Shown here: one piece after another, positions 33,985 through 46,119 of the stretch
How the letters are laid out: each line of letters begins with the position of its first letter
Numbering within the stretch: the first letter of the stretch is position 1
Assembly: GCF_944327125.1 (NCBI RefSeq)
Contig: NZ_CALVGO010000005.1
Location: forward strand, 1 to 48,806
Source: an uncultured Faecalicoccus sp.
Lineage (GTDB): Bacteria > Bacillota_I > Bacilli_A > Erysipelotrichales > Erysipelotrichaceae
DNA: 48,806 nucleotides
Direction of reading: 5' to 3'
Notes under the pieces: generated by a model
Seen by the model: only the letters and a program-made list of their open reading frames with translations
Told to the model about the DNA's origin: nothing
Databases searched by the model: none
Position numbers and translations under genes: made by a program

Positions 33985-34007
33985 AAAAAAGCCTGATTCA
34001 CAGGCTT
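33983..34007. terminator. Terminator between the Rpn gene and pyk (both directions)
   Basis: Stem AAGCCTG / CAGGCTT with a 5-nt loop. There is a strong U-run for the pyk transcript (minus) and a weaker one for the plus strand. Confidence 0.82.
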
Positions 34008-35436
34008 AGTTTTCAGTAATTTCTACGATTCTCATCATGTTTGTAGCGCCATGTCCTTCCGGATAACCAGCGACTACAATAATGAAATCTCCATAGTGAC
34101 AACCTTTCATCAAGGCAATGTTTTTGGCAAGATCGACATCATTTTCTCGTGTATTTTGAATTTCACTGAAATAAGGATCAACGCCGAAAATTGGAAGCAT
34201 TGAACGTTCTGTTACTTCATCGAAACATACACCGATAATTGGCGCCTGTGGTCTAAAACGAGCCAAGCGACGAGCTGTCAATCCGCTTTGCGTAAAGGCG
34301 ATGATACACTTAATATCCAAGGCAATCGATGTATCTGCCGCGCTGACACCAATGGCATCGTTCAATGAATTGCGGGACGTGCGAATTCCTTCTTTTAATC
34401 TTTGACGGTACGGAATCATTGGTTCAATGGCATTGGCAATGCGATGCATCGTCTGCACACATTCAACCGGATAATTTCCGGCAGCACTTTCACCTGACAA
34501 CATAATACAATCTGTTCCATCCATGATCGCATTGGCAACGTCACTGGCTTCCGCACGTGTTGGACGAGGGTTTGTCTGCATACTTTCCAGCATATGTGTC
34601 GCAGTGATGACTGGCTTACCTAATTCATTGGCAATAGAAATGATCTGTTTCTGATAGATTGGAACCATTTCCAAACTAACATCGACACCCAGATCTCCAC
34701 GGGCAACCATCACACCGTCACTGACTTCCAGGATCTCGCGAAGGTTATCAAACCCTTCTTGATTTTCAATCTTAGGGAAAATCTGAATACTGTCTTTTCT
34801 CTCCGAAATCAAGATCTTACGAATCGCTAAAACATCATCTTTACGGCGAGTAAAACTTGCGGCAATATAATCAACATCCTGCTGACAACCAAAACGGATA
34901 TCCGCTTCATCCTTTTCAGAGATAAACGGCATTGTCAACACAACGCCCGGCAAGTTACACCCTTTCCGGCTCTTTAAGTAATGTGGATTTTCGATACGTC
35001 CCTTGATCATATCATCACTGACTTCAAGCACTGTAACTTTCAGTTTTCCATCATCCATTAAAATAGAATCTCCCACTTTAACATCATGGAATACTTCTGG
35101 GCAACGGAGGGTAAATTGTTCATGCGTTCCTTCCACTTCATCTTTAAGGATCTTGACAACATCCCCTGTTTCAAACTGACATCCGCCATCTTTGAAATCT
35201 CCCAAACGAATCTCTGGACCTTTTGTATCCAACAAGATTCCAATTGGCGTATTTAATTCTTTAGATACTTCACGAATCAGTTTGATACGGTTTCCATGTT
35301 CTTCATAACTTCCATGAGAGAAATTCAACCGGGCAATGTTCATTCCTGCCTGTACAAGGCGCTTTAAAGTTTCTTTATCCTCGCTGGCAGGGCCAATCGT
35401 ACAGATAATCTTTGTTTTCTTGTCACTAATACACAT
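34006..35436 (-). CDS. pyk: Pyruvate kinase
   Basis: A 476-aa glycolytic enzyme making pyruvate and ATP from phosphoenolpyruvate. Motifs seen: KIICTIGPAS, the substrate loop NIARLNFSHGS, LLDTKGPEIR, FPKIENQEG, MVARGDLGV and TATHMLESM with ESAAGNYPVE. The C-terminal regulatory domain (about 350-476) is present, without the extra PEP-utiliser domain found in some Bacillota. The start at 35436 matches the family N-terminus; an upstream TTG at 35463 is in frame, and GGAAGGAA lies between them, so the exact start is uncertain. It lies 34 bp after pfkA in one operon. Confidence 0.96.
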   Translation of the reverse strand: MCISDKKTKIICTIGPASEDKETLKRLVQAGMNIARLNFSHGSYEEHGNRIKLIREVSKELNTPIGILLDTKGPEIRLGDFKDGGCQFETGDVVKILKDEVEGTHEQFTLRCPEVFHDVKVGDSILMDDGKLKVTVLEVSDDMIKGRIENPHYLKSRKGCNLPGVVLTMPFISEKDEADIRFGCQQDVDYIAASFTRRKDDVLAIRKILISERKDSIQIFPKIENQEGFDNLREILEVSDGVMVARGDLGVDVSLEMVPIYQKQIISIANELGKPVITATHMLESMQTNPRPTRAEASDVANAIMDGTDCIMLSGESAAGNYPVECVQTMHRIANAIEPMIPYRQRLKEGIRTSRNSLNDAIGVSAADTSIALDIKCIIAFTQSGLTARRLARFRPQAPIIGVCFDEVTERSMLPIFGVDPYFSEIQNTRENDVDLAKNIALMKGCHYGDFIIVVAGYPEGHGATNMMRIVEITEN

Positions 35437-35470
35437 AAATGTTTTCGATTCCTTCCTTTTCAACTTTTCT

Positions 35471-36433
35471 TTACACTAATCTTTCAAATAAGTTTTGTAA
35501 CGACTTACGAGATTCCGCCGGCATGCTCAGTGCCTTTTCAATTGGATAAGATACGATCTTGTTGTCGCGAATGCAGACACAATGTCCTCCAATTCCCTGC
35601 ATCAGAAGATCCACTGCCTTTTCCCCCATTTGGCTGGCCAACATACGGTCATACGGACATGGAGATCCTCCTCGCTGGATGTGACCTAATACCGTTGCCC
35701 TTCCTGAAAATCCAGTATTCAATGTCACTTTTTTAGCGAATTGGTCCACATCGGTAATTTTCTCTGAAATTACCACGATGGCATGTTTTTTCTTCTTGAT
35801 GATATCCAAATCGCGTAAACGATCCAAAACGTCATTTTCATCAAAGCCTGTTTCACTGGTTACGATCATATCGGCCCCAGATGCGATACCAGACCATAAT
35901 GCCAGGTCCCCGCAACGGTTTCCCATAACTTCGACAATGGAACAACGGTGGTGCGAGTTAGAAGTGTCACGCAGTTTATCGATGGCGTCTACAACTGTTT
36001 CTAATGCAGTGTGGAACCCAATCGTAAAGTCGGTGCACGTAATATCGTTATCAATGGTTCCTGGCAAGCCGATACAGTTGATACCCATCTCTGTCAATGA
36101 CAGGGCGCCTCGGTATGAACCGTCGCCTCCGATGACCACAACGGCTTCAATTCCCCGTTTGCCTAACTGATGAATGGCTTTACGGCGTACTTCTTCATCT
36201 TTGAATTCTGGCAAACGAGCGGAACCAAGAATCGTTCCTCCGCGGTTTACGATCTCACGAATCGTCTCTCTTGTCATTGGCTCAATATACCCTTCTACCA
36301 TGCCTTTATAGCCATTGTAGATACCAAATACTTCAAGACCGCTGTTTAATCCAACCTTTGTAACAGCACGGATGGCTGCATTCATCCCTGGCGAATCGCC
36401 ACCGGAAGTTAAAATCCCGATTCTTCTAACCAT
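35471..36433 (-). CDS. pfkA: ATP-dependent 6-phosphofructokinase
   Basis: A 320-aa enzyme phosphorylating fructose 6-phosphate. The nucleotide loop GILTSGGDSPGMNAAIRA is followed by VIGGDGSYRGA, the catalytic GTIDNDI and the allosteric/substrate motif EVMGNRCGDLAL. HIQRGGSP is near residue 245. Length is typical of the ATP-PFK of Bacillota. The start at 36433 has AGGAGG; an in-frame start at 36475 lies upstream. It leads the pfkA-pyk operon, the common arrangement in Gram-positive bacteria. Confidence 0.97.
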   Translation of the reverse strand: MVRRIGILTSGGDSPGMNAAIRAVTKVGLNSGLEVFGIYNGYKGMVEGYIEPMTRETIREIVNRGGTILGSARLPEFKDEEVRRKAIHQLGKRGIEAVVVIGGDGSYRGALSLTEMGINCIGLPGTIDNDITCTDFTIGFHTALETVVDAIDKLRDTSNSHHRCSIVEVMGNRCGDLALWSGIASGADMIVTSETGFDENDVLDRLRDLDIIKKKKHAIVVISEKITDVDQFAKKVTLNTGFSGRATVLGHIQRGGSPCPYDRMLASQMGEKAVDLLMQGIGGHCVCIRDNKIVSYPIEKALSMPAESRKSLQNLFERLV

Positions 36434-36479
36434 ATTTGTTCCTCCTAAGAATGATTTAGAACCATTCTCTAGCACTTTA

Positions 36480-36555: not shown

Positions 36556-37959
36556 TCAGATATAATATTTTTGCAGCATATCATAAATGTGTTCTGCTTG
36601 TACTCCATAAACAATTTGTACTTCGTTGGACAAAAACTTATAATCTATTGCCCCTGTATTTTCTAACTCTTTAAAGTTAAACTTTTCTGTGTTTTTCAAT
36701 TCTATTCTTAGTCTTGTCGTACAATAATTCACATGTACAATGTTTTCGCTGCCACCGCATGCTTTTATAATTTTGGTAACTACATCATTGATGTCCTGAT
36801 TCTCTATATAATTTCCTTCTTCCAATCCAACTATTCTTCCAACTGTATGGAAATTAAAATGTCGGATTAAAAACGAAAATGAAAAATAATAGATTCCAAA
36901 AAATAGAATACAGAGAAATAAGATATTTAACGGATGATTAGCTAAAGGCATTGCCAAAGACAAGATATAATCAATCAAACCTGCTGAAAAGCTAAAACCG
37001 GCTATCCATTTCAAACTGGCACATAAGAACAAACTAAATCCGCATAATATCGCGTGAAATATATACAGTATGGGCGCCTGATACATAAAGGAAAATTCCA
37101 GAGGTTCCGTTATCCCCGTCAATATTGAAGACAGTCCTGCTGAAAAATAAAAAGATTTTAATCTTTTTTTCTGTGTAGTAAAAGAATTCTTGTACATAGC
37201 CAAGGCCATCGCAGGAACTCCAGCCAACATAATGGGATAAAATCCGGCTTGATACATTCCGGTAATCCCTTTTATACCTTTTGATGACCAAAAGTTTCCA
37301 ATATCGTTGATTCCTAGCACATCAAACCAAAACACAGAATTTAACGTATGATGCATTCCTATAGGCAATAACAATCGGTTTAAAAGGCCATAAATACCCG
37401 CACCTATTGGACCGAGTTCACTAATCATTCTTCCTAGATCTAACAACATAGAATATAATAAGGGCCAGAATAACACCAAAACTAAAGATAAAAAGATCAT
37501 GGATGCAACAGAAACAAAAATACCGGAAAACATTGCATTGTCTTTTTTTACAGTAAGCCAATAGCGTAAAACCGCAACAGACAGAACCCCGGATAAAATA
37601 CCAATAAACTGATTATCACTATTTAAAAAAGCTTCTTTGATAATTTCCGGTTTCATGCCAAACATTTCTAGTGGCTGATTATGTATAAGAATGTTTTTTA
37701 CAACTAAATAACATAGCAGACCATTCAGAGCATATATATTTTTTCTTTCTTTCCCTAAACCAAAGGCTACACCTATGGCAAATAGCATAGGCATTTGATC
37801 AAGTACCATATTACCAATGGACTTAAACAAGGTCGCAAATGCATAAAGCGCTTTAATTTGAACTCGTTCTAAAAAGTAGCCTAGTCCGTTTAATATCGCA
37901 GCCAAAGGGAAAATTGCGATTGGCAGTTGTAATGAAGATCCAATGTCTTTTAATTTCAT
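36556..37959 (-). CDS. PTS sugar transporter EIICB (glucose superfamily), catalytically intact
   Basis: A 467-aa PTS permease. The EIIC domain (about 1-385, about 10 TM segments) has LPIGMHHTLNSVFW (the GxHH motif) and the substrate motif GITEPLEF. The C-terminal EIIB domain (about 390-467) has the phosphocysteine motif CTTRLRIELKN after NIVHVNY. It phosphorylates its sugar during uptake, taking phosphate from HPr through an EIIA encoded elsewhere. The glucose/GlcNAc/beta-glucoside branch fits, but the sugar is unknown. The start at 37959 has a GGAAAGG site. It is the last gene of an operon behind a LicT-type antiterminator. Confidence 0.92.
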   Translation of the reverse strand: MKLKDIGSSLQLPIAIFPLAAILNGLGYFLERVQIKALYAFATLFKSIGNMVLDQMPMLFAIGVAFGLGKERKNIYALNGLLCYLVVKNILIHNQPLEMFGMKPEIIKEAFLNSDNQFIGILSGVLSVAVLRYWLTVKKDNAMFSGIFVSVASMIFLSLVLVLFWPLLYSMLLDLGRMISELGPIGAGIYGLLNRLLLPIGMHHTLNSVFWFDVLGINDIGNFWSSKGIKGITGMYQAGFYPIMLAGVPAMALAMYKNSFTTQKKRLKSFYFSAGLSSILTGITEPLEFSFMYQAPILYIFHAILCGFSLFLCASLKWIAGFSFSAGLIDYILSLAMPLANHPLNILFLCILFFGIYYFSFSFLIRHFNFHTVGRIVGLEEGNYIENQDINDVVTKIIKACGGSENIVHVNYCTTRLRIELKNTEKFNFKELENTGAIDYKFLSNEVQIVYGVQAEHIYDMLQKYYI

Positions 37960-37980: not shown

Positions 37981-38817
37981 TCAACTTATTATCTTAATAA
38001 TATGAATCATCAAATAAACTTTTTCACTTTCCTGTAAAACATAATTATAGTCATGTTCCACCATAGCAGAAATTTCATTCACACATTCAAGGATTCGATC
38101 ATTTCTTTTTGTCAAAAACGAAAATAGATCATCCACCTTGATTTCATTATGACCAGATTCTTTAGAAAAAATATGCTGACCTAGAAATTTTAGATGAGTG
38201 ATAAATCGTGCATGGTTTAAATCTTGTTCATTGAACTCAATGCTGTAAAACTCTTCTACAATTCTTTGGACATCCTTGATAAATCGAAGAATTTTACTAA
38301 TTTGGGTATATTCTGTATCCGAACCTACCATAGCATTCACTATATGCATTGCGATATACCCAGCTTCATTTTCATCCAATGCAATCCCTGTGTTTACCTG
38401 AATAAATTTTATTGCCCATAAGCCAATTTTAAATTCCTGTTTATAAAGGCTTCGAATTTCATTAAGCATAAGATTAGGAACCGATATTCCTTTTCTCTTT
38501 CTCTCTACGGCATAGCATATATGATCACTTAAAGATATTAATATCTGGTTGCTCAACTGAACTTGGAGCTTCTCGCTTGCTTTAGATGCAATAGCCTCTG
38601 AAATACGAAAATATAATAAAGGAACACGATCCAACAATTGTTTAAGCTGGCTTTGCTGACGTGATTCAAATGTATATATTTTATCCACTTTATTCTTGTC
38701 AATAAGATCTCCCGGTTTCTTTTTAAAACCAATACCCGAACCCACAATAATAACTTCAGATCCTTCTTTATCCGCGGAAACAATATTGTTATTATAGACC
38801 TTTAAAATTTTCATCAT
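37981..38817 (-). CDS. BglG/LicT-family transcription antiterminator
   Basis: A 278-aa protein: an N-terminal RNA-binding CAT domain (1-55; ILKVYNNNIVSA, IVGSGIGFKKK) followed by two PTS regulation domains (PRD1 about 65-170, PRD2 about 175-278). The phosphorylatable histidines are present in SDHICYA, YIAMHIVNA, THLKFLGQHIF and LMIHIIKI. When dephosphorylated at PRD1 (sugar present), such proteins bind a RAT hairpin and prevent termination. A RAT-like hairpin overlapping a terminator lies at the head of this operon (41133-41190). The gene overlaps the end of the degenerate PTS gene by 26 bp. Confidence 0.94.
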   Translation of the reverse strand: MMKILKVYNNNIVSADKEGSEVIIVGSGIGFKKKPGDLIDKNKVDKIYTFESRQQSQLKQLLDRVPLLYFRISEAIASKASEKLQVQLSNQILISLSDHICYAVERKRKGISVPNLMLNEIRSLYKQEFKIGLWAIKFIQVNTGIALDENEAGYIAMHIVNAMVGSDTEYTQISKILRFIKDVQRIVEEFYSIEFNEQDLNHARFITHLKFLGQHIFSKESGHNEIKVDDLFSFLTKRNDRILECVNEISAMVEHDYNYVLQESEKVYLMIHIIKIIS

Positions 38818-40102
38818 CTATTTCACCATCCAATTTCATCATCGCTAAGTTTTCATGATATTTTTCCATAAAAATACGACAGGCTCGCTCTTCATCATAA
38901 AAAAAGTCTATAATATAGTATTCATTTTTATGAAAAAACTGATACATTTTACTTTCTTCGATTTGCTTTGAATCAATAAATTCAGGATCTATTAACTGGA
39001 TTTTCAGTCGATTACTTTCGGACTTCATCTCCAAAATATTTTCTACGCCTCCCAGGGAATCCAATATGTTTTCCGCATCCGCTTCTGTGATGACAGGAAA
39101 TATCAATTGCAAGCTTATTTTATTATTATGGTAGTGCGCGAAAAGAATCAAAATAACAAAGACAGTGCAGAAAATCACCAAAAGGTTTATCCCATCATAA
39201 AGTAAAATGGTAAACAGGCCATTTGCCACAACTAGAAATAACCAGCAAACCGGATCACATATCATTAAAAGGTACATCAAAGATTCAAAATGGAATGTGA
39301 ATACACCCACAGCCAAACAAAAAAAGAGATAATAAAAAACGGTTTTTATAGTTCTTTTTTGGTAAAGGATCAAAATAACAATCATAACGAGAAAAACGCT
39401 TATATAACGGTATCCCTGATCCATTCCCGTTAAAATGTAAAAAGAAGGAAACAAATCATTCAATCCTATGACTTGTAAAAAAGTATCCATACTGGCTGCT
39501 AAGCCAAGACCTAATGTATTCCACGAATAAAATAAATCCATAATGGACTTAAACGCATGAAATATTATCGAATAAAAAACATAAACCAGAGGTGCTATGC
39601 CAATCATAATCAATGTTGTGATAATAGGGACCGATTTCCTTCCCGAAAAGAAGGCAATCGCATTGGGAAGACGTAAATCTGAAAAACGATTAAACACTTT
39701 TGCTGCCACACAACCTGTGAATAAGCCAATCAAAGGATTTTCTAAATACATGCAACTGCTATCAACTTTTAAACGCATATAATAAAACGCTTCATTCAAA
39801 ACATCTGCATTTAAGACAGAGATTAAAATCAAATATGCGATTGCACCGCTAATTACCGCACTTCCATCTTGTGTTTTGGAAAGTTTATAGGCTAAAGTAC
39901 TGGATAATATAAGCGGTAAAAAATCTAAATATAAATCAGGCAAGGAAATTAGAACATTAAGATAATTAATATTAATGATCATCATTATTCGTTGGGCTAA
40001 AAATGACGTCATGTACATAAATGGAAAAAGACTTATCGGCAGCCAGCAAAGTGCCCATAAGTTTTTAAGTTTATCCCATAAATTGAATAAGATTTTCACC
40101 AT
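38792..40102 (-). CDS. Degenerate PTS EIICB-like membrane protein, catalytic residues lost
   Basis: A 436-aa protein with the same layout as PTS EIICB: about 10 TM segments (1 to about 335) plus a C-terminal EIIB-like domain (about 342-410; ENILDSLGGVENILEM). Each catalytic motif is altered. Where the neighbour has GMHH this protein has GLAAS; where it has GITEPLEF this has GVFTFHFE; and where the EIIB phosphocysteine should be (CTTRLR) it reads ESNRLK. It cannot take part in normal phosphotransfer. The intact frame, a good GGAG site and its position beside a LicT-type regulator suggest it is functional, perhaps as a sugar sensor or a partner of the active EIICB. I do not know a named family for it. 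Confidence 0.85.
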   Translation of the reverse strand: MVKILFNLWDKLKNLWALCWLPISLFPFMYMTSFLAQRIMMIININYLNVLISLPDLYLDFLPLILSSTLAYKLSKTQDGSAVISGAIAYLILISVLNADVLNEAFYYMRLKVDSSCMYLENPLIGLFTGCVAAKVFNRFSDLRLPNAIAFFSGRKSVPIITTLIMIGIAPLVYVFYSIIFHAFKSIMDLFYSWNTLGLGLAASMDTFLQVIGLNDLFPSFYILTGMDQGYRYISVFLVMIVILILYQKRTIKTVFYYLFFCLAVGVFTFHFESLMYLLMICDPVCWLFLVVANGLFTILLYDGINLLVIFCTVFVILILFAHYHNNKISLQLIFPVITEADAENILDSLGGVENILEMKSESNRLKIQLIDPEFIDSKQIEESKMYQFFHKNEYYIIDFFYDEERACRIFMEKYHENLAMMKLDGEIDDENFKGL

Positions 40103-40117
40103 ATCATCTCCATTAAA

Positions 40118-40158
40118 GCAAAAAGTTGCAAAAAGCTCAAAAATATTGAACTTTTTGC
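40118..40158 (-). promoter_or_regulatory. Mutually exclusive hairpins before the degenerate PTS gene
   Basis: In the mRNA, a 13-bp hairpin (40128-40158, 5-nt loop) competes with a 10-bp hairpin formed by the same 5' strand (AAAAAG core) and a duplicated downstream copy (40118-40127). No clean U-run follows, so it is not an ordinary terminator. It lies between the EEP lipoprotein gene and the PTS-like gene, about 16 nt before the start codon. Confidence 0.45.
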
Positions 40159-40172
40159 AAAAACCTTTAAAA

Positions 40173-41069
40173 CTATTTTAATTCAAGAGTTACAACTATT
40201 GGATTATGGTCAGATAATTTTGAATCTACCATTTTGACAGATTTTATTTTAATATTTTTAGATACGATCACATTATCGACACTATTAACGTTCATAGTAT
40301 CATCAGTCCCATTGAATGTATCTAACCATTTGCCGTCTTTTCCATTGGAAATATTATAATCTTCTTTAAACAAATCAAATTCTTTTGTTGATTGAGTCGC
40401 ATTAAAATCTCCAACCAAGATTTTATATTCACAAGTATCTTCATCCAAAGCTTCTTTTAATGTTTCCATCTGCTGCTTTCTTAGATCCATATCTTCATAA
40501 CTAAGATGGGTATTATAGAACGCAATTTTCTTTCCGTCTTTTTCAAAAACAACCCTTTGATAATATCTTGGTTCAACCGGTCCTTTGGCAGATACTGCAT
40601 CTAAAGCATCATTGGAAGCTTGATCGTCTGGATCATTATTCATATATGCTTCTTTCAACTCATTGGCCAATTCTTCGCCTTTAAAAAGATCGCTGTATAA
40701 TTTTGTTTCAGATGTTTCTTGCAGTTCATATTGAGAAATAGTAGCAATACCATATTCTCCGCCTTGGAATCCAATACAGTTTGTGTAGTACCCATCTTGA
40801 TATGGATCTTGAGCAAATTTTTCTACAACATCATAGTTATTTCTTTTTGTCTTTTTATCCACTTCTTGAAGACCAACAATTTCCACATTGTTTTCGGCCA
40901 TTAAATCGCGCTGTGCTTCAACATCGGGTTGCGATTTAGCATCAATATTAAAGGTCCCCACGATCAGTTCTTCACCATTAGCCTTTGAATCTTCCGTGGT
41001 TCCGGAACTACATGCCGCCAAAGACGTAATAACAGTGGCAGCACACAATATAGATAGTAATTTTTTCAT
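40173..41069 (-). CDS. Endonuclease/exonuclease/phosphatase (EEP)-fold lipoprotein
   Basis: A 298-aa exported lipoprotein with signal peptide and lipobox LAAC (C20). The mature part has the EEP fold motifs in order: VGTFNID, VGLQEVD (metal-ligand Glu), YNTHLSYED (catalytic His), LVGDFNATQ (D/N pair), DNVIVS and SDHNPIV (Asp-His). The superfamily includes DNase I-like nucleases, sphingomyelinases and other phosphodiesterases. It sits on the outer face of the membrane. It is the first gene of an operon with two PTS-type proteins and a LicT regulator, so it may release or process the phosphodiester that carries the transported sugar (inference). The true substrate is unknown. Confidence 0.86.
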   Translation of the reverse strand: MKKLLSILCAATVITSLAACSSGTTEDSKANGEELIVGTFNIDAKSQPDVEAQRDLMAENNVEIVGLQEVDKKTKRNNYDVVEKFAQDPYQDGYYTNCIGFQGGEYGIATISQYELQETSETKLYSDLFKGEELANELKEAYMNNDPDDQASNDALDAVSAKGPVEPRYYQRVVFEKDGKKIAFYNTHLSYEDMDLRKQQMETLKEALDEDTCEYKILVGDFNATQSTKEFDLFKEDYNISNGKDGKWLDTFNGTDDTMNVNSVDNVIVSKNIKIKSVKMVDSKLSDHNPIVVTLELK

Positions 41070-41132
41070 AATGCCCTCACATCTCCTTTTTGAGTTAGTA
41101 AAAATAATATCATGAGCTCATAAATTAAGAAG

Positions 41133-41168
41133 AAAAAAGGCATAAGTATCCCGTCGGAAACTTATGCC
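41133..41168 (-). terminator. Leader terminator controlling the EEP-PTS operon (attenuator)
   Basis: A 9-bp stem GGCATAAGT / ACTTATGCC with an inner TCC/GGA stem and a U-run, lying between the promoter at 41216-41244 and the first gene (start 41069). Its 5' strand overlaps the RAT-like hairpin, so the two structures cannot form together. Confidence 0.88.
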
Positions 41169-41190
41169 TGCATAACCAGTTACACGTTTT
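41158..41190 (-). promoter_or_regulatory. RAT (ribonucleic antiterminator)-like element for the LicT-family protein
   Basis: The leader RNA contains GUAACUGGUUAUGCAGGCAU (20 nt), which matches the LicT-type RAT pattern (ACUG, 5-6 nt, GCAGGCA). The upper stem CUG/CAG is flanked by internal loops UAA and GCA, with a lower stem AAAC/GUUU. The 3' side (CAGGCAUAAG) overlaps the terminator at 41133-41168. A LicT/BglG protein is encoded in the same operon. Confidence 0.75.
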
Positions 41191-41215: not shown

Positions 41216-41244
41216 ATAATAAGATTCTTTTCTGTGTTTGTCAA
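41216..41244 (-). promoter_or_regulatory. Promoter of the EEP-PTS-LicT operon
   Basis: TTGACA-17-TATTAT on the minus strand. The predicted start is near 41209, so the leader before the EEP ATG is about 140 nt and contains the RAT and attenuator. Confidence 0.82.
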
Positions 41245-45396: not shown

Positions 45397-46119
45397 TTAC
45401 TTTGATAATAAGCTTGCGGCCGCTTCATCCACAACAACCGTTACATCTGGATGATTCTGAAGAACAGAAGCCGGCATATCCGTAGTAACAGGACCTTCAA
45501 CCATTCCTTTTACCGCTTCGGCTTTATCCGTTCCAGAAACAACCATCAGAATCTTCTTTGATTTCATGATTGTACCGATTCCCATGGAAATTGCCTGTTT
45601 TGGAACTTTGTTCATATCATTGTCGAAGAAACGAGCGTTCGCTTCGATCGTACTTGGCGTCAAGTCAACAATATGTGTCAATTCTTCAAATGGTGTTCCT
45701 GGTTCGTTGAAACCAATATGACCATTGCGTCCGATTCCTAACAGCTGTAAATCGATCGATACTTTATCCAGCTCTTTTTCATAAGCTTCACAGTCTTCTT
45801 TACAGTTACCATAAGGAACATGGGTGTTGGCCGGATCGATATCAACATGATCAAACAAATTTTCTTTCATGAATGTATAGTAAGACTGAGGGTCGTTACG
45901 GTCGATTCCTACATATTCATCCAAATTATACGTTCTTACATTTTTGTAGCTGGTTCCATTATCTTCGTGATCTTTCACCATGCACTGATACAGCCCAACT
46001 GGCGAGCTTCCCGTAGCCAGACCCAGCACAACATCCGGCTTGCTGGTAACGACTTCTTTCATTACCTCGAATGCCTTCGCAGACATTTCATCATAATCTT
46101 TGCATACGATTAATTTCAT
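45397..46119 (-). CDS. nagB: Glucosamine-6-phosphate deaminase
   Basis: A 240-aa enzyme converting glucosamine 6-phosphate to fructose 6-phosphate and ammonia. Motifs seen: GLATGSSPVGLY (phosphate/sugar loop), YNLDEYVG (catalytic Asp), LLGIGRNGHIGFNEPG (catalytic His and Glu) and KAEAVKGMVEGPV. Length is that of the short Gram-positive NagB form. GGAGGT precedes the ATG, and an extended -10 (TGaTATAAT) lies close upstream at about 46145-46153. It is a single gene divergent from the GatZ-like gene. No nagA is in the window. Confidence 0.96.
   Translation of the reverse strand: MKLIVCKDYDEMSAKAFEVMKEVVTSKPDVVLGLATGSSPVGLYQCMVKDHEDNGTSYKNVRTYNLDEYVGIDRNDPQSYYTFMKENLFDHVDIDPANTHVPYGNCKEDCEAYEKELDKVSIDLQLLGIGRNGHIGFNEPGTPFEELTHIVDLTPSTIEANARFFDNDMNKVPKQAISMGIGTIMKSKKILMVVSGTDKAEAVKGMVEGPVTTDMPASVLQNHPDVTVVVDEAAASLLSK

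Follow-up and report, generated by a model that had tools for sequence, protein, structure and literature searches.

The NagE/PtsG-type EIICs whose structures have been solved are homodimers, and each of their chains carries both an active site and the cytoplasmic loop (CL) that joins TM4 to TM5. In E. coli IICB-Glc (PtsG) the CL extends to the transport domain of the opposite protomer, F146 of that opposite protomer gates together with M17, H211, H212 and E298 in the inward occluded state, and R151 forms a bond with S21 in the opposite chain (PMC11393339). Contacts from the CL to the neighboring chain are also reported for a V. cholerae EIIC (PMC12900739). Since the glucose-superfamily EIICs were solved as homodimers while the protomers of IICB-Glc are thought to act independently (PMC11393339), the purpose of dimerization is not obvious. 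With respect to gene arrangement, a close described system is nagY-nagE of E. faecalis, in which a LicT-type antiterminator is followed by NagE and a RAT sequence overlaps a terminator, and for which no dead EIICB gene is described (PMC9981650). In B. subtilis, SacX, an EII-like protein that serves mainly as a sensor, is found beside the PRD antiterminator SacY (PMC6148471).

The window analyzed here, a stretch of 48,806 nucleotides from an uncultured Faecalicoccus sp., resembles nagY-nagE in that a LicT-type gene precedes a NagE-like EIICB gene (the partner), and differs from it by an additional gene for an EIICB-like protein devoid of catalytic motifs (the dead protein). The minus-strand gene row reads lipoprotein, dead EIICB, LicT and intact EIICB (Table 1). 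The fold and domain order are those of NagE/NagP-type EIICBs (TIGR01998) and of IICB-Glc; the catalytic motifs, however, are in the partner and the CL motif is in the dead protein, so that what the solved homodimers hold on each chain is split here between two.

Table 1. Features of the locus, in window coordinates.
Feature	Position	Strand	Remarks
Intact NagE-like EIICB partner	36556..37959	(-)	467 aa; H203, H204, E285 and C413 present
Eroded TM4-TM5 loop of partner	37522..37554	(-)	Residues 136-146 (TVKKDNAMFSG); 6 residues shorter between anchor columns; Met at the F146 position
LicT/BglG-family antiterminator	37981..38817	(-)	CAT_RBD and two PRDs; four PRD histidines
Dead EIICB-like protein	38792..40102	(-)	436 aa; scaffold and gate subunit in the proposed heterodimer
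Conserved cytoplasmic loop of dead protein	39623..39670	(-)	Residues 145-160, LPNAIAFFSGRKSVPI; F151 is equivalent to F146 of E. coli PtsG
15-bp hairpin between lipoprotein and dead genes	40126..40160	(-)	May be a partial terminator; such sites are no more numerous than expected by chance
Exo_endo_phos lipoprotein (predicted)	40173..41069	(-)	First gene of the transcript
RAT-like sequence overlapping strong terminator-like hairpin	41133..41190	(-)	RAT-like from 41190, TGTAACTG..CAGGCATAAG; hairpin with T run 41168-41133
Promoter-like site	41216..41244	(-)	TTGACA-17-TATTAT; recognized by consensus alone, with no excess of such sites over chance in this region
nagB, glucosamine-6-phosphate deaminase	45403..46119	(-)	Supports an amino-sugar substrate

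Run against 273 genomes of the family, and next against 316 from the order, a profile of the five dead proteins recovered five loci in four genomes at E<=1e-166, followed by a gap to 1e-47 (ordinary NagE); as the profile was built from these same proteins, it is the gap to the rest that is informative and not the E-value itself. Besides the window, four further copies are thus found in three other genomes of the same family (one of the genomes carrying the module is Erysipelotrichaceae bacterium MTC7), and all five dead proteins form one clade. The gene order, dead protein, LicT-type antiterminator and intact NagE-like EIICB, is constant at all five loci. The original prediction, made on the letters of the window, had described a dead EIICB retained next to LicT and an intact EIICB, and had proposed a search for homologues and their neighbors; its description holds, and the four copies show the same losses in the same gene order. 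No further members were detected in samples of 395 genomes of the class and 392 of the phylum, the dead gene is absent from the same-genus genomes G001-G003, and a search of viral contigs returned two matches, neither recognised as a member. The window's dead protein as a lone query gave no match in the genome contigs, and among the matches examined an alignment-based contig scan yielded L066, a known module, and ordinary EIICs.

Dead, partner and LicT proteins form one clade each with a shared topology, ((window, G238),(G069,(G070a,G070b))), the dead and partner proteins having been placed in one tree from which the CL columns were excluded. The fork joining the window and G238 is weakly supported among the partners (86/31), and long branches leave the exact position of the dead clade among EIICs unsure. 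The matching topologies indicate that the three genes were passed on together as one module, and that the duplication in G070 involved the whole of it.

The dead gene has 436 open codons in an EIIC plus EIIB layout, with GGAG as ribosome binding site 5' of its ATG, and its end overlaps the start of the LicT gene by 26 bases. Its product matches PTS-II-BC-nag (TIGR01998) weakly, with 100 bits against a cut-off of 553 (E 1e-28); Pfam PTS_EIIC is not reached at E<=1 by this protein and is reached by all four of its orthologues. Motifs were compared, in PtsG numbering, in an alignment that combined E. coli PtsG and 174 other EIIC proteins with the five partners and the five dead proteins. In the window's dead protein H211 and H212 are replaced by N and D, R203 by T, T297-E298-P299 by F-E-S and C421 by E. 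R203, H211, H212, the GITEP motif and C421 are absent from all five dead proteins, the C421 column reading E, M, N, A and N. A Glu in the E298 column is found in the window's protein only, outside a GITEP motif, the orthologues having D, I, N and L. The substrate Glu in GITEP, the HP1 His pair and the EIIB phosphocysteine that mark a functional glucose-superfamily EIICB are accordingly missing, and the glucose-superfamily EIIC fold is recognizable by homology in sequence and structure.

The original prediction was therefore right about the loss of motifs from a protein of EIIC plus EIIB plan, about the missing EIIB phosphocysteine (ESNRLK), and about the open frame and ribosome binding site. 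It mispaired GMHH with GLAA, since GMHH aligns to GLND (residues 213-216) and GLAA sits further upstream at the GIYG position; the loss of GITEPLEF is real at the level of the motif, with the reservation that one Glu still falls in the E298 column. The transport domain has also shrunk, to 134-144 residues in the dead proteins; it has 192 in the partners, and the median of other EIICs is 195. In the AlphaFold model of the dead protein the EIIC scaffold has a pLDDT mostly of 75-95 and the poor transport domain mostly of 50-75, and an EIIB fold is present. The model matches PtsG and MalT chains (Z 21.6 and 19.6) and its EIIB fold matches the EIIB chain 1o2f (Z 10.3), matches that are not independent because an EIIC alignment served as input to the models.

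Such losses could be read as the decay of a paralogue whose frame has stayed open by chance or through translational coupling to LicT, and both the overlap of the two genes and the low identity of transport domain and EIIB among the dead proteins would fit. We find this very improbable. The four orthologues are only 21-29% identical to the window's protein (they are saturated for dN/dS) and all are intact, whereas simulated neutral drift of 0.1 substitutions per site introduced about 5 in-frame stops and left an open frame in 0 of 300 runs. Moreover, 34 columns are invariant among the five divergent copies, and one loop has remained 68% identical. The earlier view that the gene is no decayed pseudogene is thereby upheld.

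That loop carries the one strongly conserved stretch of the dead proteins, LPxxxAFFSG[RK][RK]xVPI, and it is the CL. L140, P141, F146, F147, G149, P154 and basic residues at 150/151 (PtsG numbers) are kept in all five. Their partners, conversely, all keep R203, H211, H212, T297, E298, P299, C421 and R424, and all have lost 4-6 residues of the CL together with its motif, a loss seen in 0 of the 174 other EIICs, a set retrieved in part by a pattern in which the CL is represented. The stretch from G125 to the Trp column of TM5 spans 46 residues in 173 of these 174 (47 in one) and in the five dead proteins, as opposed to 40-42 in the five partners. In a neutral subset, 36 proteins newly obtained from the TIGR01998 search, the CL is of full length in all 36 and F146 is present in 33. 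At L241, L244, L245 and L096, a full-length CL with an altered FF-G-KR motif (e.g. GTFSGSSF) was observed.

Within the five modules, identity in the CL is 68% among dead proteins versus 15% among partners, and the relation is reversed in the transport domain (18% versus 65%) and in EIIB (19% versus 44%). When 359 sliding windows of 19 residues were compared over EIIC, the highest conservation of dead over partner proteins fell on the CL (best start 140), a region that had not been chosen beforehand. TM1, which bears the same-chain gate residue M17, is conserved in the partners and lost in the dead proteins. In AlphaFold models the TM4-TM5 loop of the partner consists of 4 residues, and that of the dead protein of a loop plus a short helix. 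By homology to PtsG, the trans-acting parts are kept on the dead chain and the cis-acting parts on the active chain. The five modules go back to one ancestral duplication, and the reciprocal loss should consequently be counted as one evolutionary pattern and not as five independent tests. No CL motif residue is common to the five partners, and the remnants differ from one partner to another, as ongoing erosion would predict. Dead and partner proteins are not told apart by the positions that make scaffold dimer contacts in PtsG (50, 54, 74-76, 87 and 91). At PtsG column 118, a scaffold position that touches the transport domain in PtsG, Gln is found in all five partners versus Pro or Ser in the dead proteins.

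The retention of the CL in the dead protein and its absence from the partner point to an obligate heterodimer. Either chain could afford its losses only with the missing part provided by the other, and an obligate heterodimer with one working elevator is the simplest reading; based on conservation and on homologous structures, we consider it probable. According to our hypothesis a homodimeric NagE-type transporter was duplicated and its labor divided. The partner would be the sole chain with a functional transport domain and with a phosphocysteine EIIB, would contribute the TM1 gate that acts on its own chain, and would perform all transport and phosphorylation, whereas the dead subunit would provide the second half of the scaffold of the dimer and, with its FF-SG-RK loop, close the partner's inward-facing sugar site in trans. 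Erosion of the partner's own CL would then cost nothing, because that loop faced the useless transport domain of the dead subunit, and a single working side appears feasible given the presumed independence of PtsG protomers (PMC11393339). Both transport and phosphorylation of the sugar, probably GlcNAc, would take place on the partner chain only. Same-chain phosphotransfer would agree with the cis preference of engineered EII heterodimers, in which, according to work cited in PMC6148471, phosphate passes to sugar better within one chain. Points against this hypothesis are the degenerate transport domain and the EIIB fold that the dead subunit has kept, neither of which the heterodimer needs, the single duplication behind all five modules, the unsure position of the dead clade and the negative search for a Glc-type EIIA in the window's own genome; the remaining EIIB leaves room for a second, regulatory function.

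The same pairing evidence could be accommodated if the dead protein were an optional subunit, with a CL-less partner homodimer that works by itself and mixed dimers in which the dead protein throttles or stabilizes transport. The partner does keep all tested substrate and phosphotransfer residues. Its homodimer, however, would have a CL on neither side, a state without counterpart among the 174 other EIICs, which makes this reading quite unlikely. The original prediction, in suggesting a subunit that modulates the active EIICB, pointed in the right direction, although an obligate heterodimer is favored here over modulation.

Its other suggestion, a sugar sensor, deserves consideration in view of the precedent of SacX next to its antiterminator (PMC6148471). 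The dead EIICB would bind LicT or the active EIICB and tune PRD phosphorylation as in SacX/SacY, being dispensable for transport. The dead gene adjoins LicT at all loci in a constant order, and its product has kept an EIIB fold. But SacX, an EIIBC of the beta-glucoside family, needs a phosphorylatable EIIB that acts on the antiterminator, and in the dead proteins the Cys is gone from all five and EIIB identity is low. Having lost the sugar pocket, about 50 residues of the transport domain and the phosphocysteine, the dead protein cannot sense as SacX does; what it has kept is the loop acting on the other protomer. A sensor would also leave unexplained both the strong retention of the CL in the dead protein and its loss from the partner. 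We thus regard this role as unlikely, and favor the obligate heterodimer.

Regulation of the operon may be of the ordinary kind. The putative antiterminator shows the features of LicT/BglG antitermination, namely a CAT_RBD, two PRDs with four His, and a RAT overlapping a terminator, and the four PRD histidines are present in LicT at all five loci. Ordinary LicT control via the partner's intact EIIB is therefore possible, and in the heterodimer hypothesis LicT, phosphorylated through that EIIB, would control the operon by means of the RAT and terminator. A RAT-terminator element also precedes the lipoprotein orthologue in G238, and in G069 (L063 5555 (-)) one follows an EIIA gene and precedes a nagB-like and a PP-loop ATPase gene. 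The Exo_endo_phos lipoprotein gene lies directly behind RAT and terminator both at L062 7639-8676 (+) and at window 40173-41190 (-), the proteins being 66% identical; its orientation relative to the PTS genes is the same in one of two genomes and divergent in the other.

The partner has the GITEP Glu, the His pair and the EIIB Cys of a NagE-type transporter and lacks the trans-acting TM4-TM5 loop (FF-G-KR); it scores 431 bits against the NCBIfam equivalog cut-off of 553 for TIGR01998. Its own genome (G000) encodes no NagE-type EIIC besides the partner at E<=1e-70, and thus offers the dead protein no second candidate of this type for pairing at that threshold. A short EIICB after LicT in G148 (C191) was considered as another partner and rejected, as its loop, with FFGGEK, is of full length and no dead gene adjoins it. 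The PTS genes of the window are immediately followed, on their own strand, by genes for pyruvate kinase and 6-phosphofructokinase (window 34006-36475 (-)).

The substrate is likely GlcNAc or a related amino sugar, as suggested by TIGR01998 being the family nearest to the partner, by nagB in the window and by the neighbor genes of the relatives. Both modules of G070 have NAGidase (GH84) genes next to them, and that of G069 has a Glc-type EIIA and a gene of the glucosamine-6-phosphate isomerase type. As for phosphate supply, HPr is present in the window's own genome; Glc-type EIIA (PF00358) gave no match at E<=0.01 in that assembly, the completeness of which is rated at 100%.

Our search of the literature, outside which most subscription papers fell, found no described heterodimeric EIIC. 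A likeness exists in ZnT5-ZnT6, where, within a homodimeric zinc-transporter family, one subunit without a metal site pairs with an active one (PMC10932157); this CDF family is unrelated, and the likeness covers the loss in the dead subunit only, not the reciprocal loss in the active one. As a warning to annotators, a protein labeled 'PTS transporter subunit EIIC' may be a subunit without catalytic function. If our hypothesis is true, trans gating matters enough for selection to keep it on an otherwise dead protein, and the pair would offer a transporter with a single site, suited to direct tests of what is contributed in cis and in trans.
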